DNA of 64,000 nt, from positions 6,342,893 through 6,406,892 of the forward strand of contig NC_014623.1 in assembly GCF_000165485.1 (NCBI RefSeq), given 5' to 3'. Of this stretch, positions 5,121-17,099 are shown piece by piece. Each line of letters begins with the position of its first letter. Position 1 is the stretch's first letter. The notes beneath the pieces are model-generated. The model did no database searches. It was not told the origin of the DNA and was given only the letters and a program-made list of their open reading frames with translations. The position numbers and the translations under genes were made by a program. This DNA is from Stigmatella aurantiaca DW4/3-1. Its GTDB lineage: Bacteria; Myxococcota; Myxococcia; Myxococcales; Myxococcaceae.

Positions 5121-6551
5121 CTAGAAACAATCGGGCCCGGGAAACATTTTCTCGGGGTTGAGCAGCCCTGATGGATCGAAAAAGGTCTTGAGCCGGCGTT
5201 GCAGTGCGATCACCGGCGCGGGTTGCTCGAAAGCAAGGTAGTCCCGTTTGGCGTGACCTACGCCGTGCTCGCCGGTGATGGTGCCGCCCATCTCCACCGT
5301 GAGCTTCAACATCTGTTGGATGGCCTCCTCGACCAGCGGCCGCTGGTGGGGCCCCTCGTAGAGGATGTTGGCGTGCAGGTTGCCGTCCCCGGCATGACCA
5401 TATGTGGCCACCAGGAGTCCCATCCGAGCCCCCAGGGCCTTGAGTTGTTCGATGAGGTCGGGAATCCGCGAGCGGGGGACGGCAATATCCTCTGAGATTT
5501 TGTGGGGTTTAAGGGCGCGCAGGCCCGGGGAGACCAGGCGGCGGGCGGCCCAGAGCTTCTCCCGCTGGTCCTCGTTTTGGGCCACCAGGGTCTCGGTGGC
5601 CCCCAGGCGCGCGCAGATCTCCCCGGCCTGGGCCAGCTCGGCGAGCAAGCCCTCTTCCGTACTTCCGTCTACCTCCAGGATGACGGCCGATCCGGCGCCG
5701 GGCGGAAACGCAAACCCCCGTCCCGCCACGGCCCGGAGGGCCACGTCGTCCATGAGCTCCAGGGTCCGAGGCAGCAGCCCCGAGGCCAGCACCGCCGTGA
5801 GGGCGCGGGCCGCGGCCACCACCGAGTCAAAGATGACCAAGGCGGTCATCACCTGCCGGGGCCGGGGGATGAGTTGGAGGGTGATCTCCGTGGCCACACC
5901 CAGCGTCCCCTCGGAGCCCACGAAGAGGCCCACGAGATCATACCCGGCCACCCCCTTGAGGGTGCGCCGGCCGACCCGGAGCACCTCGCCGTCCGGAAGG
6001 ACCCACTCCAGGCCCAGGACGTAGTCGCGGGTCACCCCATACTTGAGTGCCCGGGGCCCCCCCGCGTTCTCCGCGATGTTGCCGCCCAACGTGCAGAATT
6101 CCCAGGAGTTCGGGTCCGGCGGGTAGAAGAGCCCCACGGCCTCCGCGGCCCGCATCAGGTCGCCGGTGATGACGCCTGGCTCCACGACGGCGGTGAGGTC
6201 CTCCACGGACAGGGAGCGGATGCGGTTCATCCGCTCCAGGCTGACCATCACCCCGCCCCTCAACGCGAGCGCCCCGCCGCTCTTGCCGCTGCGCGCCCCA
6301 CAGGGGGTGAAGGGCACCCCGAGGGCCTGGCACGTCTTGAAGAGGGCCGACACCTGCGCGGTGTTTTCGGGGAAGGCGATGATGTCGGGCGGGTAGACGC
6401 CGCTGTCGGACTCGTCTCGGGAATACCGCTCGCGCGTCTGCTCGTCCCGGCGAAGCTGGCCCGAGGAGAGCTTCTCGCTCAGCGCGGCCCAGGCGCGCTC
6501 CAGGCGCTCGGGCTCCACACGGGGGAAGGTCTTCTCGGACGGCAGGGTCAC
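5121..6551 (-). CDS. FAD-linked 2-hydroxyacid oxidase/dehydrogenase (GlcD/D-lactate dehydrogenase family)
   Basis: The product has 476 residues. The N-terminal PCMH FAD-binding domain shows the PPDIIAFP and CGARSGKSGG region and LGGNIAENAGG; the C-terminal cap shows YGHAGDGNLHANIL and GEHGVGHAKRDYL, the hallmark of the glycolate oxidase GlcD/D-lactate dehydrogenase group. It should oxidise a D-2-hydroxyacid to the keto acid. The GTG at 6551 overlaps the folE stop in GTGA, so the two genes are coupled. No glcE/glcF partner lies nearby, which suggests a stand-alone dehydrogenase. Substrate (glycolate, D-lactate or D-2-hydroxyglutarate) is undetermined. Confidence 0.88.
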   Translation of the reverse strand: MTLPSEKTFPRVEPERLERAWAALSEKLSSGQLRRDEQTRERYSRDESDSGVYPPDIIAFPENTAQVSALFKTCQALGVPFTPCGARSGKSGGALALRGGVMVSLERMNRIRSLSVEDLTAVVEPGVITGDLMRAAEAVGLFYPPDPNSWEFCTLGGNIAENAGGPRALKYGVTRDYVLGLEWVLPDGEVLRVGRRTLKGVAGYDLVGLFVGSEGTLGVATEITLQLIPRPRQVMTALVIFDSVVAAARALTAVLASGLLPRTLELMDDVALRAVAGRGFAFPPGAGSAVILEVDGSTEEGLLAELAQAGEICARLGATETLVAQNEDQREKLWAARRLVSPGLRALKPHKISEDIAVPRSRIPDLIEQLKALGARMGLLVATYGHAGDGNLHANILYEGPHQRPLVEEAIQQMLKLTVEMGGTITGEHGVGHAKRDYLAFEQPAPVIALQRRLKTFFDPSGLLNPEKMFPGPDCF

Positions 6552-7177
6552 GTTCGCGCTCCCAGCCGGGCCCACAGCTCCCGGCGCAGGGGCCCCTCCT
6601 TGCGCAGGCGGCCCTCGTACGCTTCGACGTGGGTGATGGCGTCGCGTTGCTGCTCGCCCCGGAGGCGCATGCAAGCCTGCTTCGCCTCGAGGATGCAGGC
6701 GGTGGCGGGGCTGCCCAGCACCCGGGCCAGGGCGCTGGCCACATGCCGCGCCAGATCCTCTTGAAGGATGAGCCGGTGGGCAAAGCAATCCACCAGGGTC
6801 GACAGGCGCCCGAAGCCCACCACGTGCTTGCCCGGCACATAGGCCACATGGGCCCGGCCCTCGTAGGGCAACAGGTGGTGGGGGCACATGGAATGGAAGC
6901 GCAGGTCCGTCACCACCACCATCTCTCCGGCGGAGTCCGGGGGGGCCGGGTACACCGTCCCGATGGCCTCCTCGGGGGTGAGGGCATAGCCATCAAGAAA
7001 CTCGGTCATCCAGGCCTCCGCGACGCGCTCGGGTGTGCCCTGGAGGTTCGGATCCGTCGCCAGGGGCAGGCCCGCGGCGAGCAGGAAGTCCTTCATCGCT
7101 CGGGCCATGGCGGCACCATCCGGCGGGGTGCGCGGGGCTTCGCGCGGCGGTCGTCGAGGGGCTCGGGATGTTCCCAC
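6548..7177 (-). CDS. folE: GTP cyclohydrolase I
   Basis: The protein converts GTP to dihydroneopterin triphosphate, the first step to folate or tetrahydrobiopterin. The zinc and active-site signature FHSMCPHHLLPYEG and the second metal cysteine in EAKQACMRLRG are present, with GFGRLSTLVDCFA between them. I chose the GTG at 7177 because AAGGAG lies eight bases upstream; an ATG at 7108 would still keep the whole catalytic core (186 residues). It overlaps the downstream FAD oxidase by GTGA and its 5' end overlaps the end of the interrupted frame at 7093-7629. Confidence 0.9.
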   Translation of the reverse strand: MGTSRAPRRPPREAPRTPPDGAAMARAMKDFLLAAGLPLATDPNLQGTPERVAEAWMTEFLDGYALTPEEAIGTVYPAPPDSAGEMVVVTDLRFHSMCPHHLLPYEGRAHVAYVPGKHVVGFGRLSTLVDCFAHRLILQEDLARHVASALARVLGSPATACILEAKQACMRLRGEQQRDAITHVEAYEGRLRKEGPLRRELWARLGART

Positions 7178-7772: not shown

Positions 7773-7827
7773 AGGTACCTGCCTTGACACCTCGCGGGTA
7801 CGCCATTAGAGCACCCGGGCGGTACCT
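7773..7827 (+). promoter_or_regulatory. Putative promoter and GGTACCT repeats of the metal-uptake operon
   Basis: A perfect -35 hexamer TTGACA is at 7784-7789, with a weak -10 (TAGAGC) 17 bases later. It is flanked by the palindrome AGGTACCT (7773-7780) and a second GGTACCT (7821-7827), with a related GGGTAC in between (about 7796-7801). Repeats that bracket a promoter are what a repressor operator looks like, and the genes downstream suggest a metal-responsive regulator. They do not resemble the classical Zur box, so the regulator is unknown. Confidence 0.4.
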
Positions 7828-7834
7828 CTTCCGA

Positions 7835-8257
7835 ATGTTCACCCGAGCCGCCACCCTTCGACGCAGCACCGCGACGTTGCTCGCCGTGCTGTGGGTGTTG
7901 CCGCTGCTGGCGGCGCTGGGGCACTCCGAGGAGCACGCGCACCGCTTCTGCGCGGAGCACCAGACCTTCGAGGAGACGGCCCGGGGAACGGGGCAGATGC
8001 TGTCCCAGTTCGCCCCCCAGGTTCCCCTGCTCTCCGCCTCGCGGCTGGCCGAGGCCCTGGACACCTCGCGGCTCACCCACGAAACCTGCCCGGTGCTGAC
8101 CGCCGGGACGAGCCAGGAGTTGCTGCTCCCGGAGCTGGCGTGGACCTTCACGGCCTACGCGAGCGTGAGCCTCCCGGCCACCGCGCCCCCTCAGTCCATC
8201 GTCTCCGTTCCCATCCTCGCCATCGCGCCCAAGTCATCGCCGCCGGCACGCGCCTAG
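7835..8257 (+). CDS. Small membrane-anchored HxxCxEH protein, first gene of metal-uptake operon
   Basis: The product has 140 residues. A hydrophobic segment (about residues 14-29) is followed at once by a His/Cys/Glu cluster: H30, H34, H36, C39, H42, including HRFCAEH. This would sit at the outer face of the inner membrane and looks like a metal-binding site. The rest is unremarkable, ending in an Ala/Pro-rich tail. The ATG at 7835 follows the putative promoter. It leads the operon of an outer-membrane barrel and a ZnuABC-like transporter, so a role in periplasmic zinc (or other divalent metal) handling is inferred. A second gene at 16599-17099 shares the HxxCxEH motif. No named family is recognised with confidence. 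Confidence 0.75.
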   Translation: MFTRAATLRRSTATLLAVLWVLPLLAALGHSEEHAHRFCAEHQTFEETARGTGQMLSQFAPQVPLLSASRLAEALDTSRLTHETCPVLTAGTSQELLLPELAWTFTAYASVSLPATAPPQSIVSVPILAIAPKSSPPARA

Positions 8258-8282
8258 CGTCCCGAAGCGACTGACTGTGGTC

Positions 8283-8302
8283 GACACCCGTCCCCGGGTG
8301 TC
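8283..8302 (+). promoter_or_regulatory. Intercistronic 8-bp stem-loop
   Basis: GACACCCG (8283-8290) and CGGGTGTC (8295-8302) form a perfect stem with a four-base loop between the small HxxCxEH gene and the outer-membrane protein gene. There is no following T-run, so it may be an mRNA-stabilising or processing element or a partial attenuator. Confidence 0.45.
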
Positions 8303-8322
8303 CGGTTCCGAGGAGTACCCAG

Positions 8323-9618
8323 GTGTTCCCTTATTCGCGCCGGGCTTCCGGCATGGCTGTCCTTGTTGTTTGCACGCTCTTGTCATCTGCCTTGCCCGCT
8401 GCGGCGCAGGGCACTCCCCCCAATCCGGACCCGGGCTCCGGGCTGAGCCCGGAGGAACTCCAGGAGATCGAAGCCGCCGTGGGCAAGGACCAGACGGCCT
8501 CCGCCCCGGACACCCCGTCCGAGGCCGCTCCGGGCAGTGCCGCACCGCTGCCCGTGCCCCGGGCGCTGTCCAACCCGTGGCTCGACATGAGCTTCATCCT
8601 CGATGTGGCGCTCGCGGCCTTCACCGCCGAGGAGCCGCTGCAAGGAGGCGGGCATGACCCTTCGAGAAACGGGTTCGCCCTCCAGCAGTTGGAGCTGTCC
8701 ATCGGCAGCGTGGTGGACCCGTACTTCCGCTTCAACGGCAACATCGTCTTCAGCCAGTTCGGGGTGGAGATCGAAGAGGCCTACGCCACCACGCTGGATC
8801 TCCCCGCCAACCTCCAGTTGCGCGCCGGCCAGTTCCTCACCCGCTTCGGCCGGCTCAACAACACCCACCCCCACTCCTGGGACTTCGTGGACCAGCCCTT
8901 CGTCCTCAGCCGCATCTTCGGCGGAGAGGGCAACCGGGGCCTGGGGATGGAGCTCTCCTGGCTCGCGCCCCTGCCCTGGTACGTGGAGCTCCTCGGCTCG
9001 GTCACCGACGCCAACGGGGAGTCCACCGCGCGCAGCTTCTTCGGCGCCACCCAAAGCCGCGTGGTGTCCCCCTTCGACTTCCAGTTCACCGGGGCGGTGA
9101 AGCAGTTCTTCCCCCTCTCGGATGCGCTGTCTCTGATGTGGGGCTTGTCGGCGGTCACGGGCCCCAACGCCTCGGGCCACCGCAACCGCAGCGACGTCTT
9201 CGGAACGGACCTGTACCTGAAGTACCGCGAGGTCCAGGGCAACGATCCCACCGTGCTCGCCCTGCAAGCGGAGGTGCTCTACCGGCGCCGGCAGGTGCCC
9301 GAGGCACTGCTCAGCGACTGGGGCGGTTATGCCCAGCTCCACTGGCGCTTCGCCCAGCGATGGGCCACCAACGCGCGCTACGAGTTCGGCACGGCCGCAC
9401 ACGGCCGGGACGGACAGCTCGCCCCGGACCCGCTCGACCCGGAGTGGACCGCCACGCGCCAGCGCCTCTCCGCCAACCTCACCTTCTGGCCCACGGAGTT
9501 CTCCCGGTTGCGCCTGCAAGCCGCCACCGACCGTGTGGGCTGGCGGGACGAGCCCGACTACTCCGCCTTCCTTGCCTTTGAAGTGGTGATGGGCACCCAC
9601 GGCGCCCACGCCTTCTGA
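8323..9618 (+). CDS. Outer-membrane beta-barrel protein of metal-uptake operon
   Basis: The product has 431 residues with a signal peptide (hydrophobic run to about residue 28, ending PAAAQ). After a Pro/Ala-rich linker, alternating aromatic/polar strands run to a C-terminal phenylalanine, typical of a barrel recognised by the Bam machinery. Features such as RAGQFLTRFGRLNNTH-HSW are like porin or zinc-regulated outer-membrane receptor relatives. No TonB plug domain is apparent at this length, so a passive channel is more likely than a TonB receptor. The GTG at 8323 has AGGAG at 8311-8315. Its place before a znuA-like gene suggests it lets the metal or a chelate enter the periplasm. Confidence 0.8.
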   Translation: MFPYSRRASGMAVLVVCTLLSSALPAAAQGTPPNPDPGSGLSPEELQEIEAAVGKDQTASAPDTPSEAAPGSAAPLPVPRALSNPWLDMSFILDVALAAFTAEEPLQGGGHDPSRNGFALQQLELSIGSVVDPYFRFNGNIVFSQFGVEIEEAYATTLDLPANLQLRAGQFLTRFGRLNNTHPHSWDFVDQPFVLSRIFGGEGNRGLGMELSWLAPLPWYVELLGSVTDANGESTARSFFGATQSRVVSPFDFQFTGAVKQFFPLSDALSLMWGLSAVTGPNASGHRNRSDVFGTDLYLKYREVQGNDPTVLALQAEVLYRRRQVPEALLSDWGGYAQLHWRFAQRWATNARYEFGTAAHGRDGQLAPDPLDPEWTATRQRLSANLTFWPTEFSRLRLQAATDRVGWRDEPDYSAFLAFEVVMGTHGAHAF

Positions 9619-9642
9619 CCCCTTTTGTCCCGGAGCCTTCCG

Positions 9643-10560
9643 ATGAGACACCTCTTCACGGCCTTGAGCGCCGCCCTCCTCTGCCTCTTGTCCCTACCGG
9701 CCCACGCGGCCCTCAACGTCGTCACCTCCGTGTCGGATCTCGCCGCGCTGGCCAAAACCATCGGCGGGGACAAGGTGGACGTCACCTCCCTCTCGGTGCC
9801 CACGCAGGATCCCCACTTCGTGGATGCCCGGCCCAACCTCGCCCTCGCACTCAACCGCGCGGACTTGCTCATCACCGTGGGGCTGGAGCTGGAAGTGGGC
9901 TGGCTGCCCACGCTCCAGCTCGGCGCGCGCAACGCGAAGATCCAGACCGGCAACCCGGGCTACCTGGATGCCTCGCAGTTCGTGAAGCTGCTCGAGGTTC
10001 CCACCGCCAAGGTCGAGCGGAGCCAGGGCGACGTGCACCCGGGCGGCAACCCGCACTACCTCTATGATCCGCGGGCGGCCCTGGCGGTGGCCCAAGGCAT
10101 CGCGGCGCGCCTGGCGCAGCTCGACTCGAAGAACGCCGCCACCTTCCAGGCCAACCTCCAGACGTTCACCACCGAGCTGGAGAAGGCCCGCGCGGACTGG
10201 GAGAAGCGCCTGGCCGGGCTGCGCGGCGCCCCCGTCATCTCGTTCCACCGGACGACGGCCTACCTGTCCGACTGGTTGGGCTTCACGCAGCTGGCGTTCC
10301 TCGAACCGAAGCCGGGCATCCCGCCCAACCCGTCCCACGTGGCCAAGGTGCTGGCCGAGGGGCGCTCGCAGAAGGCGCGGCTTCTCTTCCAGGAGGACTA
10401 CTACCCGGACACCACGTCCCGGCTCGTGGCCTCCAAGCTCCCCGCCCCCCTGGTCATCATCCCCGGCGGCACGAACTTCCGGGGCGGAGAGACGTACCTC
10501 CAACACATGGAGGGTCTGGTGAAGCGGCTCGAGCAGGGCCTCGCGGGCAAGGGGACCTGA
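9643..10560 (+). CDS. Metal ABC transporter substrate-binding protein (ZnuA/TroA family)
   Basis: The product has 305 residues with a signal peptide (ALLCLLSLPAHA). It belongs to the cluster 9 metal-binding proteins: the likely ligands are the histidine of QDPHFVDARP, the histidine of NPHYLYDP, the histidine of SFHRTTAYL and the aspartate of QEDYYPDTTSR, in the usual order. The ATG at 9643 has GGAG seven bases upstream; an upstream TTG (9625) is less likely. It would capture Zn2+ or Mn2+ in the periplasm and hand it to the permease encoded at 12151. The extended His-rich loop of true ZnuA is absent, so the metal is not certain. Confidence 0.9.
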   Translation: MRHLFTALSAALLCLLSLPAHAALNVVTSVSDLAALAKTIGGDKVDVTSLSVPTQDPHFVDARPNLALALNRADLLITVGLELEVGWLPTLQLGARNAKIQTGNPGYLDASQFVKLLEVPTAKVERSQGDVHPGGNPHYLYDPRAALAVAQGIAARLAQLDSKNAATFQANLQTFTTELEKARADWEKRLAGLRGAPVISFHRTTAYLSDWLGFTQLAFLEPKPGIPPNPSHVAKVLAEGRSQKARLLFQEDYYPDTTSRLVASKLPAPLVIIPGGTNFRGGETYLQHMEGLVKRLEQGLAGKGT

Positions 10561-10561
10561 C

Positions 10562-11407
10562 ATGCGCCTGTCACAACTTCTGCCCTTGGCCCTGTTGGGA
10601 GGATGTGCCTGGGATGCCGGCGAAGGCTTCGCCGTGCTCGAACCCACCGTGCGCGCAGCCTACGTCTCCGAGCCTTCCCGCGCCGTGGGCGATGGGTACC
10701 AGCGGCTCAGCTCCGACTACCAGGTCCGCCTCACCACCGCGGAGATGCGGTTGGAGCGCATCGAGTTGACGGCCAGCGCCGGAGGGGGAGGCACCAGCAC
10801 CTTCGATCCCTCCCGTCCCCCACCCGGCTACAGCCTGTGCCACAACGGCCACTGCCATCGCGACGATGGGGCGCTCATCGACTACGAGGACATCGCGGCG
10901 GAGCTGGGCGGCGGAGGCGCGGCCCCCCGCACCGTGGCCACCCTCCCCGTGGGAGATGTGAACTTGCTGGCCCCGGAGACCCGCGCGGTGACGTGCGCTC
11001 CGGCCTGCGAGCTGCCCAGCGGCGCGGTGTCCCGGGGGCGCTGGGCCGTGACGGCCCTGAAGCTGGAGGGCACCGTGCGCGATGGGCGGACCGACGCCCG
11101 CTTCGGGGGCGAGAAGCCCTTCCGCCTGGAGGCCACGCCAGGCAGTGCCACCGCCGCGCCGCTCGCGGTGCTCGACGGAGATCTGGACGTTCCCGCGGAC
11201 CGGGAGCACGCACCGCGCGTCCTCCTGGCGCTCCAGTTGGAGGTGACGGCCCGGCTCTTCGACAGCGTGGCCTGGGAACTTCCCCAGCCCGGGAGCGATG
11301 GCACCGTGGACCTGAGCGCGGCCGCCAACGCCCCCGCGCGGGAGGCCATTCTCAAAAGCGTGGCCGAGCTGGCCCCTTCGGCGGAGGTGAAGCGTGAAGA
11401 CCGATGA
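10562..11407 (+). CDS. Lipoprotein with HNGHCH metal-binding motif
   Basis: The product has 281 residues. The lipobox LLGGC places the lipidated cysteine at residue 15. A cluster HNGHCHRDD at about residues 94-102 is an obvious metal-binding candidate. The remainder has beta-rich character with no recognised domain. It starts one base after the stop of the binding-protein gene and overlaps the ATPase gene, so it is a firm operon member. It could be an accessory metal chaperone on the periplasmic face; this is inferred from motif and position only. Confidence 0.8.
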   Translation: MRLSQLLPLALLGGCAWDAGEGFAVLEPTVRAAYVSEPSRAVGDGYQRLSSDYQVRLTTAEMRLERIELTASAGGGGTSTFDPSRPPPGYSLCHNGHCHRDDGALIDYEDIAAELGGGGAAPRTVATLPVGDVNLLAPETRAVTCAPACELPSGAVSRGRWAVTALKLEGTVRDGRTDARFGGEKPFRLEATPGSATAAPLAVLDGDLDVPADREHAPRVLLALQLEVTARLFDSVAWELPQPGSDGTVDLSAAANAPAREAILKSVAELAPSAEVKREDR

Positions 11408-12206
11408 CACCCCCGCCTCCCATGAAGCCGCTTTCCCCGGGGTGACCCCGGCCGAGGTGCTCCTGTCCTGCGAGAACCTCGTCATCGGCTATGGAAACAA
11501 GGCGCTCCTGCCCCCCCTCCATCTCCAGGTGCGGCGGGGAGACTTCGTGGCCGTGGTGGGCCGCAATGGCTCGGGAAAGAGCACCTGGTTCAAGACGCTG
11601 CTGGGCCTGCTTCCCCCCGTGTCTGGACGCATCGACAAGGGCACGCCCGGAATGAAGAGCGCGTACGTGCCGCAGACGGCGAGCATGGACGCCCTGCTGC
11701 CCGTGCGCCCCAAGGAACTGGTCCTCTGGGGGCGACTGACCGGCTGGAACTTCCTGCGCCCCTTCTCCAGCCAGGAGGACCGCCGCGTGGCCCGCGAGGC
11801 GCTCGACACCGTGGGCGCCCAGGCGTTCGCCCACCGGCCCTTCCGCGAGCTGTCCGAAGGCCAGAAACAGCGCGCGCTGCTCGCCCGGGTGCTCGCCAGC
11901 AACGCGGACCTCGTGCTGCTGGATGAGCCCACCGCTGCCATGGACGCCGTGGCCGAACGGGAGACGATGCAACGGCTTGCGGAGCTGGCCCGGGAGCGGC
12001 GCATCGCCGTGGTGGTGGTGAGCCACGATCTGGCGATGGCCGCCGAGTACGCCAGCACCCTGCTCTTCGTGGACCGGGAGGCGCCCGCCGTCGTCCTGGG
12101 CAACGCGCGCACCGTGTTCAACCACCCCGCCTTCCGCCATCAGTACGGCGATGAGTACTCGGCCCGTCTCTCCCTTGGATCTCGACTTGGACCCATCCCT
12201 GGTTGA
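11394..12206 (+). CDS. Metal ABC transporter ATP-binding protein (ZnuC-like)
   Basis: The product has 270 residues. Walker A GRNGSGKST is at residues 57-65, the signature reads LSEGQ (for LSGGQ), Walker B is LVLLDEP, and the switch histidine is in VVSHD. The GTG at 11394 has GGAGGT five bases upstream. The gene overlaps its neighbours on both sides (14 bp with the lipoprotein, 56 bp with the permease). It energises uptake through the permease. The family is sure; the metal is inferred from the operon. Confidence 0.92.
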   Translation: MKTDDTPASHEAAFPGVTPAEVLLSCENLVIGYGNKALLPPLHLQVRRGDFVAVVGRNGSGKSTWFKTLLGLLPPVSGRIDKGTPGMKSAYVPQTASMDALLPVRPKELVLWGRLTGWNFLRPFSSQEDRRVAREALDTVGAQAFAHRPFRELSEGQKQRALLARVLASNADLVLLDEPTAAMDAVAERETMQRLAELARERRIAVVVVSHDLAMAAEYASTLLFVDREAPAVVLGNARTVFNHPAFRHQYGDEYSARLSLGSRLGPIPG

Positions 12207-13059
12207 ACCCTCGAAGTGGGAACAGTTCCTGTCGAGCCTCGATCTGTTCCTGGATCCGGTTCTGTGCGCCCTGATCGCGGGGGGCGTGCTGGGGTTCCTG
12301 AGCGTGTACGTGGTGCTGCGGCGCATGGTGTTCGTCAGCGCCGCGGTCACCCAGGCGGCGGGCCTGGGCGTGGCGCTCGCCTTCTTCGCGGAGATCCACC
12401 TGGGCACCCACGTGGACCCCATGCTGGGGGCCACCGGACTGTCGCTGCTGGCAACGGCCCTGCTGATGGCGGACCCGTCCCGGCTGAAGCTCACGCGGGA
12501 GAGCGTGCTCGGCCTCGCCTTCGCCTTCTCGGGCGGGGCCGCCGTGCTGGTGGGCGACCGCATCGCCCAGGAGGCCCATGACATCCAGGGGATCCTCTTC
12601 GGCACCGCGGTGCTGGTCACCCCCGAGCAGCTCGCCACCGTGGCCGGGGTGGGCGGTGTCATCCTCCTCATTCACCTGTGGTGGTTCCGCGGCATCTCCT
12701 TCGCCAGCTTCGACCGGGTGGGCGCCCGCGTGCAGGGGCTCCCGGTGCGCTTGCTGGATGCGGTGTTGATGGTCTCCATCGGCATCATGGTGGGCGTGTC
12801 GGCGCGGGCGCTCGGATCGCTGCCCGTGTTCGCCTTCTCCACCCTGTCCGCCATCGCGGCGCTGGTGCTCGATCTGAGGCTGCCGTGGACGTTCCTCTTC
12901 GCCACGATCGCCGGGTGCCTCTCCGGCGCGGGGGGCTACCTCTTCGCCTTCTTCTATGACTTCCCGGTGGGCGCCTCGCAGACGGTGTGCGCCAGCGTGC
13001 TGGTGGGGGTTGCCGTGCTGATGAACGGCCTGCGCCGGCTCATCCGCCCAGCCCACTGA
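12151..13059 (+). CDS. Metal ABC transporter permease (ABC-3/ZnuB family)
   Basis: The product has 302 residues with about eight hydrophobic helices from residue 33 onward, including FVSAAVTQAAGLGVALAFF, which matches the conserved cytoplasmic-loop region of ABC-3 permeases. The ATG at 12151 lies inside the end of the ATPase gene, giving a 56-bp overlap. The last gene of the rightward operon; its end overlaps by 20 bp the convergent TPR gene. It forms the channel for Zn2+/Mn2+. Confidence 0.9.
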   Translation: MSTRPVSPLDLDLDPSLVEPSKWEQFLSSLDLFLDPVLCALIAGGVLGFLSVYVVLRRMVFVSAAVTQAAGLGVALAFFAEIHLGTHVDPMLGATGLSLLATALLMADPSRLKLTRESVLGLAFAFSGGAAVLVGDRIAQEAHDIQGILFGTAVLVTPEQLATVAGVGGVILLIHLWWFRGISFASFDRVGARVQGLPVRLLDAVLMVSIGIMVGVSARALGSLPVFAFSTLSAIAALVLDLRLPWTFLFATIAGCLSGAGGYLFAFFYDFPVGASQTVCASVLVGVAVLMNGLRRLIRPAH

Positions 13060-14758
13060 CCGGGCCCTCCGTGTTGCCGACGGGTGGCGGGGGCTCGGAG
13101 CCCACCAGGCGAAGGGGGTGTCCCCGCCCAGCCACGAACGACCGGGCCCGTCTGAGCTCTGGCAGGTGGGCATCCGCGCGGCGCCAGAGTTCGAGGAAGC
13201 GGGAGAAGTCCCGCCCAGCCTCCGCGAAGTCTCCCTGGCCCGCCCGGGCCTCCGCCACGAGCAGCCGCGCATGGCCACTGCCTGGCCGCTCCGCCACGAG
13301 CCCGAGCGCCAGCTCCAAGGCCTTCTCTTCGCGCCCGAAGCGCAGCCGCACCCGCGCCAGCGTCTCGCGCGCGGACCGGGAGAAAGGCGCAGGACCCGCC
13401 GCCCGCAGGCGGCGCTCCAGCCGGAATGCCCGGATGAGGGTCGCCTCGGCCCGGGCCGAGTCTCCCCGGCGCGCCTCCAGCGCCCCCCGCAGCTCCTGAC
13501 TCGCCGTCTCCAGCACCCGCGCCACATCCCTCGGGCAGAGCGCACGGCCCTCGGCGCGGCGCTCGTCCGACACCGCCGTGTGCAGCGCATCGAGCATGTC
13601 GCAAGCACGTTCCGCCTCGAAGAGCTTGCCGGTCTCCAGGGCGCAGAGCCCCCGGGTGTAGAGGCGCAGCCCATCGAGCAGGGCCCGCTCGGCGACGGCC
13701 GCCCCTTCGCCCAGCTCGCCATGGACTTCCGCCGCCGCGCGCCAGAAGCCGAAGCGCAGGTGAAGCCCGGAGAGGACACAGGCCGAGAGCACCACGGCCT
13801 GCCCATCGCCCTGCCCTTCCACCCGGGCGCGGAGGCGCCGGGCCCACACCTGTCCTTCGCCGTACTGCCCCGCCTCGGCGCACCCGGTCACGAGCAGCCG
13901 CATCGCCAGCTCCGCGGAAGGGGCTGCATGGGCCGGGAGCGTTTCCTGGGCGAGATAGGCGTCATCCACCTCCACCGCCCGTTGAAGCACTTGGCGCGCC
14001 TCTCCAGTAAGGCCGATGCGCTGAAGAAGCCGCCCCGCCCCCAGCAGGGCTGGCCCCACCTCGGGGACCAGGGCCACCAGCCGCAGCGCGCTGTCCTGGG
14101 CCATCTCGGGCCGGGCGCTGTCCACCCAAGCGTTCACCCACGCATGGTGGACCCCCTCGTGGTGGGGATGCGTCCGCAACATCTCCCTCAAGAGGGATTG
14201 GGCATAGGACTGTCCCGGGCAAGGCCTGCCACTGGCCTCGTATCCATCCATCAGGAACCCCGCGAGCAACAGCCGCGCCTCCACGTCCTCGGGATAGAGC
14301 GAGAGGAGGTACTCCATCTCGCGCACGAAGGACTGTCGGCCGTTGGCGGGCCCCTTGTCCGCCAGCAGGCTCGCGGCGACGACGTAGCGCTGCTCGAGAT
14401 CCGTTGCCCGCTCGCACAGCGCGAGCGCCTGACGGATGGCCTCGGTGCGCTCGGCGGCGAAGCGCCCTCCCGCGCCGCGTGTCAGGGCCAGGCCCCAGAA
14501 GGCCATGGCGAGGCCCGGATCCTGCCGCGCCGCCTCGGCGAACGCCCGCCGTGCCTCGGCCCCCCAGCCCAGGTGCAACAGGCGCAACCCCTGGTCGAAG
14601 TACGCCTGGGCCCGGGGAACGCGGGTGCTGACCTGCATGTGGGCCTGCCCCCACCCGTCGCGCAGCGGCGGCGTGGGAAGCTCGGCGTTGGGAATGTCCT
14701 CCCACGGTCCATGGGAGAAGACGGAGGGTTCCTCGGCTCGAAGAAGTCTCGCCAGCAT
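13040..14758 (-). CDS. TPR-rich protein of unknown role
   Basis: The product has 572 residues, almost wholly helical with repeated TPR-like units (for example AQAYFDQGLRLLHLGWGAEA, then AFAEAARQDPGLAMAFWGLA). There is no signal peptide or membrane segment, so it is probably cytoplasmic. It ends a leftward string of genes: the 201-residue gene stops 10 bases upstream of its ATG. The first residues around AHMQVSTRVPRAQAYFDQGLRL resemble the start of periplasmic/metal-associated TPR proteins, but I cannot assign a function. Confidence 0.75.
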   Translation of the reverse strand: MLARLLRAEEPSVFSHGPWEDIPNAELPTPPLRDGWGQAHMQVSTRVPRAQAYFDQGLRLLHLGWGAEARRAFAEAARQDPGLAMAFWGLALTRGAGGRFAAERTEAIRQALALCERATDLEQRYVVAASLLADKGPANGRQSFVREMEYLLSLYPEDVEARLLLAGFLMDGYEASGRPCPGQSYAQSLLREMLRTHPHHEGVHHAWVNAWVDSARPEMAQDSALRLVALVPEVGPALLGAGRLLQRIGLTGEARQVLQRAVEVDDAYLAQETLPAHAAPSAELAMRLLVTGCAEAGQYGEGQVWARRLRARVEGQGDGQAVVLSACVLSGLHLRFGFWRAAAEVHGELGEGAAVAERALLDGLRLYTRGLCALETGKLFEAERACDMLDALHTAVSDERRAEGRALCPRDVARVLETASQELRGALEARRGDSARAEATLIRAFRLERRLRAAGPAPFSRSARETLARVRLRFGREEKALELALGLVAERPGSGHARLLVAEARAGQGDFAEAGRDFSRFLELWRRADAHLPELRRARSFVAGRGHPLRLVGSEPPPPVGNTEGPVSGLGG

Positions 14759-14768
14759 GATGTCCTCC

Positions 14769-15374
14769 TCAGGCCCCAGCCCACGGGGCGTTCCAATCGT
14801 TCCCTGCGAACTCCAATGCGCGGGCGCGCGTGGCGATGCGCCACCACGCTCCCGCCAACTCCTCTGCCCCCACGGGCGAGCCTTTCCGGCGGCTCGCCAG
14901 GCACTCGCGCCGCCAGCCCACCCCCAGCGTGGCGAGCACCCACTCCTCGTACCCGGCCAGCCACTCCGCCACCGTCACCACGGCCCTGCGCGCGGCGCGC
15001 TGCTCCTCGAACGTCACCGGCTCACGCAGCGGCCCCAAGCCTTCCGCCAGGAAGACAGGCCACTCCACGCGAGCGGCCTCCACGAGGCGCGGCGAGAAAC
15101 CCTCCCGGGCGATGAGGACGGCTTCCGTTTCCTCGCTGCACAGCACACCGAACCCCCACATCGTGAGGGCCCCTCTTCCCGGCAGCACGCCGCCATACGC
15201 GCTGCATCCCTTGTGCCCTTCCGGGCGGCGCGTCCGGGACAGCCCCCGGCGCAGCAGGAGATTTCCTCCCGGGAACGAGACGTCCTTCCCGAGACACCCC
15301 AGCGTGATGTCGAACAAGCGCTCCGCATCACGCCGGAGCTCCAAGGGCAACAAGGGCGGCAGGGCAGTGGCCAT
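14769..15374 (-). CDS. Conserved-looking hypothetical protein
   Basis: The product has 201 residues, soluble, with mixed helix and strand character and four cysteines scattered (no clear pairs). The G/C third-position bias is normal for the neighbourhood, supporting a real gene. It lies between the 125-residue gene (10 bases upstream) and the TPR gene (10 bases downstream), so the three are co-transcribed. I do not recognise the family. Confidence 0.7.
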   Translation of the reverse strand: MATALPPLLPLELRRDAERLFDITLGCLGKDVSFPGGNLLLRRGLSRTRRPEGHKGCSAYGGVLPGRGALTMWGFGVLCSEETEAVLIAREGFSPRLVEAARVEWPVFLAEGLGPLREPVTFEEQRAARRAVVTVAEWLAGYEEWVLATLGVGWRRECLASRRKGSPVGAEELAGAWWRIATRARALEFAGNDWNAPWAGA

Positions 15375-15384
15375 GAGCCGTTCC

Positions 15385-15762
15385 TCAGCTCGCCTTGGCC
15401 GGCGCGTTTTGCCGAGGCTTGATGTCCCCGAAGAGGGCGGCGGGCACGATGGGCTGAGCCCCCTTTTGGGTGAGCAGCGCGTTCACCGCACGGACGATTT
15501 TGCCGCGCACGCGGGGCGGCAGCGGCTGGTCCGAGAGCGCCGCATGGAGCTGCCGGTCACTCACCCCGCGTCCGCTCTTCGGCTTGCCGAGGCCCAGCTC
15601 CGCGTAGGACTTGCCCTGGGTGTCCTTGTCCCGCCGCTTCGCCCAGCGCTTGTGCTCCAAGAGGCGATCCTCGTCGGAGTGGCGCTCGAGCCGGGCCGAG
15701 AGGCGCACCAAGGTCCGGGGGTCGATCTTCTGGTCGTTCAGGAACTGCTGAAAGCTACCCAT
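15385..15762 (-). CDS. Small basic hypothetical protein
   Basis: The product has 125 residues, rich in Lys and Arg (for example RLLEHKRWAKRRDKD), no signal peptide. The C-terminal half has a helical segment (PPRVRGKIVRAVNALLTQKG). The ATG at 15762 has GGAGA upstream and is preferred to a longer frame that extends to 15966. It sits in the same leftward unit as the 201-residue protein. A nucleic-acid-binding role is possible from charge alone but not shown. Confidence 0.65.
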   Translation of the reverse strand: MGSFQQFLNDQKIDPRTLVRLSARLERHSDEDRLLEHKRWAKRRDKDTQGKSYAELGLGKPKSGRGVSDRQLHAALSDQPLPPRVRGKIVRAVNALLTQKGAQPIVPAALFGDIKPRQNAPAKAS

Positions 15763-15836
15763 GCTGTCTCTCCAGGGACTTCGGGAAAGCGGAGCCAGGC
15801 TTCCCTGGCCCCGCGAAAAGAACTTCCGGGAGCGCG

Positions 15837-16331
15837 TCAGTGGACGTGGTCGTGCTCGCCGTGCTCGGCGACGAACGAGAGGGACGTCTTCGAGGTGGGC
15901 CCGAACGTGAGCACGTGCGTGCCCACCCCCAGTTCCACCGTGTAGCGGCCCTTGATCTCCGAGCACTCGGTGGAGCTCTTCGCCACCGCCTCCGGCTCCA
16001 CGGCCACGCCGTTGGCGGTGCGGATGGTCAACGGCACGTCCTCGCTGACGAAGAAGAGGTAGTCCCCTTCTTCCGAGGCCGCGAACGTGACGGAGCCGCC
16101 CTTGCCGCCCGTCGCATCGACGAGGGAGATGTCATAGCGCTTGTGATCATTGCTCACGGCCGGAGCGCCCGCGGACGTCGCGGCGGCGGTGATGGGCACG
16201 GCGGGCCCCTCTTTGAGGTGCTCACACCCCTCGACGTCGATGCTCTCCTCCTCCCCCTCATCGTCTCCGCACCCAGCGCTGAAGAGGATCGACGAAGACA
16301 GCAACACGGCGGACAACAGCTTCCTGTTCAT
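15837..16331 (-). CDS. Lipoprotein with His-rich C-terminal tail
   Basis: The product has 164 residues with a lipobox FSAGC (cysteine at about residue 21) followed by an acidic linker. The body is probably a small beta-sandwich and the last residues are AEHGEHDHVH, five histidine/acid positions suited to bind Zn, Ni or Cu. It is encoded 74 bp upstream of the basic hypothetical gene. Together with the HxxCxEH gene at 16599 it may be a second metal-handling unit next to the ZnuABC-like operon; that is inference from motifs and proximity. Confidence 0.75.
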   Translation of the reverse strand: MNRKLLSAVLLSSSILFSAGCGDDEGEEESIDVEGCEHLKEGPAVPITAAATSAGAPAVSNDHKRYDISLVDATGGKGGSVTFAASEEGDYLFFVSEDVPLTIRTANGVAVEPEAVAKSSTECSEIKGRYTVELGVGTHVLTFGPTSKTSLSFVAEHGEHDHVH

Positions 16332-16598
16332 GAGTTATTCCACGGGTGAATACTGCGTGCAGCAGTGGGAATGCCCTCAGGCGCCCGGCCTCTGGAGGCA
16401 AGGCACGAGGCGCGTGGCGAGGACATGAAGGCAAAGGCCCACGCGAGGGACTCCTCGCGCGAGGGAGCGCTGCATCAACCGGTGCGGACGACGGCGCGCA
16501 ACCCGCGCGGCCTTTTCTGGGCCGTCAACGGACGCACCCCCTCGTGAACCCCGCACGCACGGCGCACGAAGAGCCGTGACGGCAGCGCTCCAGGGATG

Positions 16599-17099
16599 TC
16601 AGGACAGGGGGGGAGACGACTTGGGGGCGACCCGGAGCCGGTCCACGGGCTCCGCTTGAACCTGCTTCCGCACGGACACCGGCCCCGAACAGACTGGCGC
16701 CTCCGTGAGCAGCGGCCCCTGCCCGGGAGGCGGCAGAAGCTCGCGGCGGAAGAAGGCATGGGCACAGTGGGCCTCGGAGCCATGAGAGACCGTGGCCTCC
16801 TGCGCCGCAGCCGCCACCCGCGAGTCGGAGAAGGACTCGCGCACCGGGCCCAGCCGCGCGTGCCCAGCCACCTCGCCCGCGTGAACCACCTCGCCGTGCT
16901 CCAAGCACGTGGTGTGCTGGACGAGGGCGAAGTGGGCCGCGCTGCCCAGGTACGCCAGCGCGCAGAGCACCACCAGCGGCAACGCCAACAGGCGCGGCCG
17001 GTGGAGGCTCCCAGGCAGATGGCGTTCCGAGCGTCTCACGCGATGCGGTTCCACATGAAGATGAGTTGCGTTTGTAAGCCAGTTCGACTTCCGGCGCAA
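16599..17099 (-). CDS. Small membrane protein with HxxCxEH motif (second copy)
   Basis: The frame spans up to 166 residues from TTG 17099, but in-frame GTGs at 17054 and 17039 are equally possible starts; the first 20 residues are not supported by a strong ribosome site. A transmembrane helix (LLALPLVVLCALAYLGSA) is followed by VQHTTCLEHGEVVHAGEV, which contains H-T-T-C-L-E-H, the same HxxCxEH pattern as the first gene of the metal-uptake operon at 7835. More histidines follow (HARL, SHGSEAHCAHAFF). It is probably anchored in the inner membrane with a metal-binding periplasmic part. The last ~50 residues are low in recognisable features. Confidence 0.6.
   Translation of the reverse strand: MRRKSNWLTNATHLHVEPHRVRRSERHLPGSLHRPRLLALPLVVLCALAYLGSAAHFALVQHTTCLEHGEVVHAGEVAGHARLGPVRESFSDSRVAAAAQEATVSHGSEAHCAHAFFRRELLPPPGQGPLLTEAPVCSGPVSVRKQVQAEPVDRLRVAPKSSPPLS

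Follow-up and report, generated by a model that had tools for sequence, protein, structure and literature searches.

CruR, a DUF2946 protein encoded by an upstream open reading frame (uORF) of Bordetella pertussis, responds to copper: metal relieves an arrest and uptake is shut off, with Rho-dependent termination over a 162-bp gap, and the spacing between its CXXC and RAPP motifs is conserved and matters for control (PMC9426467). The CruR study notes that riboswitches for copper and zinc are not known, a gap that protein leaders may close (PMC9426467). The study of the CutF-like leaders lists genes for copper, nickel or cobalt as their neighbours, and its main text mentions neither zinc nor Myxococcota (PMC9973294). 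In the RAPP arrest peptides, the Arg is irreplaceable in the three peptides tested (PMC12992588). In an engineered fusion of the zinc finger ADR1a with the SecM arrest peptide, folding of the finger on zinc, close to the exit tunnel, relieves the arrest (PMC4571824). None of the papers searched describes a leader peptide that responds to zinc. Two small membrane proteins of the myxobacterium Stigmatella aurantiaca DW4/3-1 are compared here with these systems; both are encoded in the window, that is, the whole 64,000-nt stretch analysed.

The genome from which the window is taken is 10.26 Mb in size. Each of the two proteins, termed leader 1 and leader 2, is the first gene of an operon, and the two operons (A and B) are convergent. 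The family to which they belong probably consists of exported leader peptides that report zinc while being translated, by way of a pause that controls the downstream genes. A preliminary description regarded the pair as standing metal sites anchored in the inner membrane; of that interpretation the link to zinc is retained, but the standing role fits less well than a leader read during synthesis. A variant of the metal-responsive leader peptides with zinc as the signal is likely the better explanation.

A family with fixed spacing

The leaders and their motifs are as follows.

7835-8257, + strand: leader 1, a 140-amino-acid small membrane protein and candidate zinc-sensing uORF, first gene of operon A (family profile)
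7940-7960, + strand: HRFCAEH (H36-x-x-C39-x-x-H42) of leader 1, putative first half of a metal site (conservation)
8087-8089, + strand: C85 of leader 1, putative second half of the metal site (invariant)
8225-8245, + strand: APKSSPP of leader 1, candidate arrest motif, 3 residues short of the stop (conservation)
16599-17039, - strand: leader 2, about 146 amino acids, first gene of operon B (family profile); the reading frame is open to 17099
16896-16916, - strand: HTTCLEH of leader 2 (alignment)
16608-16628, - strand: APKSSPP of leader 2, 2 residues short of the stop, with PP 50 residues past the second Cys

Both reading frames have the transmembrane helix and motif first reported for them. 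The leftward gene is real as well, with a shorter product than proposed: its probable start is the GTG at 17039-17037, which aligns with the homologues, and not the TTG at 17099. Outside the motif the two sequences had been said to differ. Both, however, end in APKSSPP (C-termini APKSSPPARA-stop and APKSSPPLS-stop), both have a second His/Cys pair, and profiles merge them. In a search of its own genome, leader 1 has leader 2 as the best match after itself (E 0.14, residues 12-138 of 140). Leader 2 recovers the leader-1 orthologues of other genomes at E ~1e-3, and iterated profiles from either seed arrive at the same set of 109 open reading frames, 100 of them distinct. Judged by sequence, leaders 1 and 2 are paralogous members of one unnamed family. 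Chance likeness of the two motifs is ruled out by this convergence.

No Pfam or NCBIfam family covers the leaders; there are only scattered sub-threshold matches, each on a single member. A PDB sequence search, an Rfam search of the region and a plasmid search for leader 1 gave no match. The ratio dN/dS is 0.35-0.63 for leader 1 (against orthologues of the same genus) and 0.18 for leader 2.

Members share a short basic N-terminus, a transmembrane helix, a His, H-x-x-C-x-x-H, a variable stretch, His-(x)-(x)-Cys, a second variable stretch and APK-x-[S/G]-P-P. The C-terminal motif is present in 99 of the 100 distinct members, the remaining one having SPK, and lies 1-9 residues (usually 1-7) from the stop. 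Seven positions (H30, H36, C85, P132, K133, P136 and P137) do not vary among 39 diverse members, and conservation reaches 90% or more at C39, H42, A131 and S135; 98/100 members have a His no more than 3 residues ahead of C85. The His and Cys residues of the originally proposed HxxCxEH are thus conserved, but its Glu is frequent rather than invariant and the motif is better written H-x-x-C-x-x-H. As a separate observation, a member ahead of a TonB receptor (L095, 8636-8995) has lost the Cys and second His of HxxCxxH and kept APKMGPP.

The second Cys is separated from the first Pro of PP by 50 residues in 83 of the 100 distinct members, and the number stays within 48-52 in every one of them. In the diverse set the standard deviation of the C85-PP spacing is 0.68, compared with 3.76 for C39-C85. 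The C85-PP linker is nonetheless the least conserved part of the protein (13% mean pairwise identity), and the ten residues ending at PP are the most conserved (71%). A linker of constant length and drifting sequence is what one would expect if it tethered a binding site to the active site of the ribosome. AlphaFold gives one confident helix and a remainder of low confidence (mean pLDDT 66), as would suit a protein that acts during its own synthesis.

Stable zinc-binding proteins anchored in the inner membrane, serving as a periplasmic buffer or chaperone that passes zinc to ZnuA or to lipoproteins, would also account for conserved His and Cys ligands after a transmembrane helix and for zinc-related neighbours. 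Such a role is unlikely. It leaves unexplained the PP close to the stop, the constant Cys-PP length with drifting sequence, the anti-Shine-Dalgarno (anti-SD) codons described below and the consistent placement at the head of the operon; in addition, disorder is predicted for the C-terminal half. It is because of these same features that a regulatory leader is favoured.

Operon context and the zinc link

The remaining parts of the two operons are listed below.

7784-7812, + strand: promoter-like TTGACA-N17-TTAGAG of operon A, implying a very short 5' untranslated region
8323-9618, + strand: outer-membrane porin, BBP2-like (weak; PF07642 E 0.0017, below cut-off)
9643-10560, + strand: ZnuA-like periplasmic metal-binding protein (PF01297 E 1e-49)
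10562-11407, + strand: lipoprotein with HNGHCH, conserved as third gene of operon A (cluster c5 in homologous loci; lipobox)
11394-12206, + strand: ZnuC-like ABC ATPase (PF00005 E 6e-26)
12151-13059, + strand: ZnuB-like permease (PF00950, ABC-3, E 1e-33)
15837-16331, - strand: lipoprotein with a lipobox and the C-terminus AEHGEHDHVH, second in operon B and separated from leader 2 by 267 nt
15385-15762, - strand: c13 of operon B
14769-15374, - strand: c12 of operon B
13040-14758, - strand: tetratricopeptide repeat (TPR) protein of operon B

Operon A runs rightward from leader 1 through the porin, ZnuA, the HNGHCH lipoprotein and ZnuC to ZnuB, ending at 13059. By domain search it contains ZnuA, an ABC ATPase (ABC_tran) and an ABC-3 permease in a single operon, as expected of the ZnuABC-like system first suggested. 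Operon B runs leftward from leader 2 to the TPR protein, down to 13040; loci of this type in Myxococcaceae keep the gene order leader-c9-c13-c12-c11. Both lipoproteins were correctly picked out in the preliminary description and are plausible candidates for zinc handling; no Pfam family matched the HNGHCH protein. In other Myxococcaceae the arrangement is the same, with a leader-leader distance of mostly 8-14 kb and of 39 kb in 1/14. The 14 homologous loci compared all have TTGAC upstream of leader 1, and most of them have AGTAGAGC at the spacing of a -10 element. Divergent to leader 1 lies a candidate GTP cyclohydrolase I (FolE)-like gene (6548-7096, - strand); in most of the Myxococcaceae loci examined, this position is held by a member of that gene's cluster.

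Nearly all members with a readable downstream gene directly precede ZnuABC/porin, TonB-receptor/ExbBD, His-rich lipoprotein or CobW/L33/DUF1826 genes, which strongly supports the proposed link to zinc. In the loci gathered by whole-genome search, the operon headed by a family member is of the porin-ZnuABC kind (type A) in about 25 cases, of the His-rich lipoprotein kind (type B) in 9, of the L33-CobW-DUF1826 kind (type C) in 6 and of the TonB-receptor/ExbBD kind (type D; the receptor at locus L094 was read from the open reading frame itself) in 4. In the family tree the operon types are clustered yet have been swapped several times. The family is found across the Myxococcota and in four metagenome-assembled genomes of Planctomycetota, where porin-ZnuA(BC) lies downstream; these last members may reflect transfer or misbinning.

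A DNA pattern built solely on H-x-H-C, 135 nt and APKxSPP has 43 matches in a scan of 84,980 genomes. True members, in which PP is 1-7 residues ahead of the stop, account for 40 of them; the other matches (L115, L129 and L136) are due to chance. Porin/ZnuABC, TonB-receptor, ExbB or CobW genes follow 32/40 of the pattern-found members, five are at a contig end and three are unclear or unlinked (L117, L121 and L130). Linkage to metal transporters and conservation of the His and Cys residues were the two points on which the preliminary description had made its proposal depend, and both were borne out.

The type C operon, which was not found in the genome of the window itself, is particularly informative. 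In Zur regulons, zinc-free L33 replaces the zinc-binding form during zinc starvation, alongside COG0523/CobW. The L33 proteins of type C have no Cys, as in the zinc-free form, and loci L072 and L074-L077 carry Cys-free L33, CobW and DUF1826. Type C thus combines a Cys-free ribosomal paralogue with COG0523/CobW, as in a zinc-starvation (Zur-type) operon, and these neighbours are the best pointer to zinc over copper. A copper-responsive relative of CruR and CutF, with ZnuABC-like genes downstream by happenstance, would share the overall plan, and TonB-receptor operons are found in copper systems too. This is nevertheless very improbable, given a His-rich HxxCxxH plus HxC site in place of CXXC and neighbours that indicate zinc starvation.

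RNA signals and a proposed mechanism

Three features lie between the end of leader 1 and the porin.

8214-8219, + strand: anti-SD TCCTCG within leader 1 codons ATC CTC GCC (predicted fold, codon usage)
8283-8302, + strand: RNA hairpin GACACCCG-TCCC-CGGGTGTC, between the leader 1 stop and the porin Shine-Dalgarno (SD) sequence (covariation)
8310-8315, + strand: porin SD GAGGAG, ahead of the GTG start at 8323-8325; CGAGGAG is invariant in 27 aligned loci

In the predicted fold of 8195-8400, UCCUCG of the leader pairs with CGAGGA (8309-8314) of the porin SD. The Leu codon of the anti-SD is CTC in 37/37 distinct Myxococcaceae type A leaders, and at other Leu positions of the same reading frames CTC makes up 158/372 (~42%). 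None of the other conserved Leu columns is uniform; the two that come closest have 30/36 and 27/31. Pairing of the SD with these leaders has a mean probability of 0.69, compared with 0.31 in synonymous leader shuffles. At 36 loci outside Myxococcaceae type A, where gaps reach 185 nt, the corresponding values are 0.45 and, in shuffles, 0.26 (Wilcoxon p 7e-4, a value that ignores relatedness among the loci). The hairpin at 8283-8302 retains 93% of its pairs across 27 loci, where double changes number 12 compared with 3.6 in shuffles. A second small hairpin, at 8338-8352 within the first porin codons (GCCGG..CCGGC; GCCAGG..CCTGGC in L067), also shows apparent covariation across type A loci. No intrinsic terminator was found in the operon A gap, which is 65 nt long.

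From sequence, spacing, context and RNA pairing we infer zinc as the ligand, arrest of the ribosome and the direction of control. In the absence of zinc, the ribosome would pause on arrival of the C-terminal APK-x-S-P-P at its peptidyl-transferase centre. C85, 50 residues away, would then be just past the exit tunnel and able to meet H-x-x-C-x-x-H. The paused ribosome, or a queue behind it, would prevent the leader anti-SD from closing on the porin SD, and porin-ZnuABC would be translated. With zinc present, the site would fold around the ion and the resulting pull would release the pause; the ribosome would depart, the hairpin would close and uptake would be turned off. Operon B and other long-gap operons may use the same sensor with another readout, e.g. 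Rho-dependent termination as in CruR. The stronger form of this proposal, a natural zinc-sensing arrest family in which assembly of the zinc site where the chain leaves the ribosome releases APKxSPP and gives zinc direct post-transcriptional control over ZnuABC, TonB-receptor and zinc-sparing operons throughout the Myxococcota, in place of Zur or beside it, is put forward tentatively, at slightly less than even chances.

Several points weigh against a zinc-sensing leader. The candidate motif is not RAPP: a Lys one residue further out stands in place of the required Arg, and APKxSPP is a candidate arrest motif by sequence. The anti-SD, ~21-26 nt upstream of the P-site codon, is just behind the expected footprint of a paused ribosome, so that a queue of ribosomes or a steric block would be required to open it. 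SD pairing is mostly absent from long-gap operons, type B included, which therefore need another readout, and from some short-gap operons as well. Members L117 and L130 have no co-directional metal gene downstream and are possibly orphans or assembly effects; the downstream genes of L086, L102 and L121 were not identified. Moreover, the sequence would be compatible with copper or another metal.

A palindrome resembling Fur/Zur sites, TGCAAC-N3-GTTRCA, is located ~50-120 nt upstream of the transmembrane codons in types B, C and one D (loci L066, L070, L072-L077 and L088). It was not seen at Myxococcaceae type A loci, and a weak half-site is present near 17064-17071 of the window, upstream of leader 2. 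The palindrome ahead of types B and C, together with two FUR-family proteins in the genome, would suit a leader that senses no metal at all, either a Sec/YidC-type monitor or a device for simple coupling of translation, zinc control then being the task of a Fur/Zur repressor; an exported leader with PP near the stop is also like SecM-type monitors. The probability of this is low, as the downstream genes are zinc genes and not secretion genes, His and Cys are conserved at a fixed distance from PP, and the palindrome is lacking at Myxococcaceae type A.

Comparison with known systems

If the zinc-sensing leader is correct, the family represents a zinc counterpart of the copper leaders with a new candidate arrest motif, one beyond the reach of the published RAPP/RGPP screen. 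It would provide a clean test case for metal binding that pulls on a nascent chain, and a phylum-wide set of 'hypothetical proteins' would be regulators acting at birth rather than working proteins.

The RAPP/RGPP peptides ApdA, ApdP and SecM likewise are small exported proteins upstream of regulated genes, with a small residue followed by Pro-Pro at the C-terminus (PMC12992588). They differ in the required Arg, which is missing here, with a Lys one residue further upstream. The residue two before the P-site Pro is A, S, G, L, N, Q, T, V, H or M and never the RAPP Arg; by sequence the family is thus not of the RAPP type. The proposed logic follows CruR in that metal ends the arrest and thereby stops uptake, and SecM in that a stalled ribosome frees an SD. 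The ADR1a-SecM fusion is an artificial construct whose peak effect is at a tether of 24-26 residues, compared with ~50 here (PMC4571824).

The broad plan of the CutF-like class (PMC9973294) also fits. That class comprises exported proteins of <150 amino acids with PP no more than 15 residues from the C-terminus and a same-strand gene no more than 1 kb downstream; the two leaders have 140 and ~146 amino acids, a transmembrane helix, PP 2-3 residues from the end and gaps of 65 and 267 nt. In Rhodobacter CutF, by contrast, copper activates an oxidase. Elsewhere in the same genome (~10,030,500; L105, 1486-1815) a 109-amino-acid exported open reading frame with a Cys/His cluster, ending RPPIAV, directly precedes a TolC/CzcC-like outer-membrane gene; it has a below-cut-off DUF2946 match (E 0.003) and is a candidate CzcI/CutF-like leader for an efflux operon.

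By Pfam the family is not DUF2946, with no PF11162 match over the cut-off, and it has neither CXXC nor a C-terminal RAPP. The best DUF2946 score among the 39 diverse members is E 0.04, and none of 193 Myxococcota genomes has a match above the gathering score. An approximate DUF2946 sequence used as bait had no match in plasmid records; DUF2946 itself has one below-cut-off match on pMOL30. The likeness to CruR lies in the design: a small exported protein with a metal motif heads a metal-uptake operon, PP is near the stop, and the distance from metal motif to PP is fixed, here with 50 intervening residues (48-52). The parts differ, with CXXC and RAPP in CruR, and HxxCxxH plus HxC and APKxSPP in the Myxococcota family.

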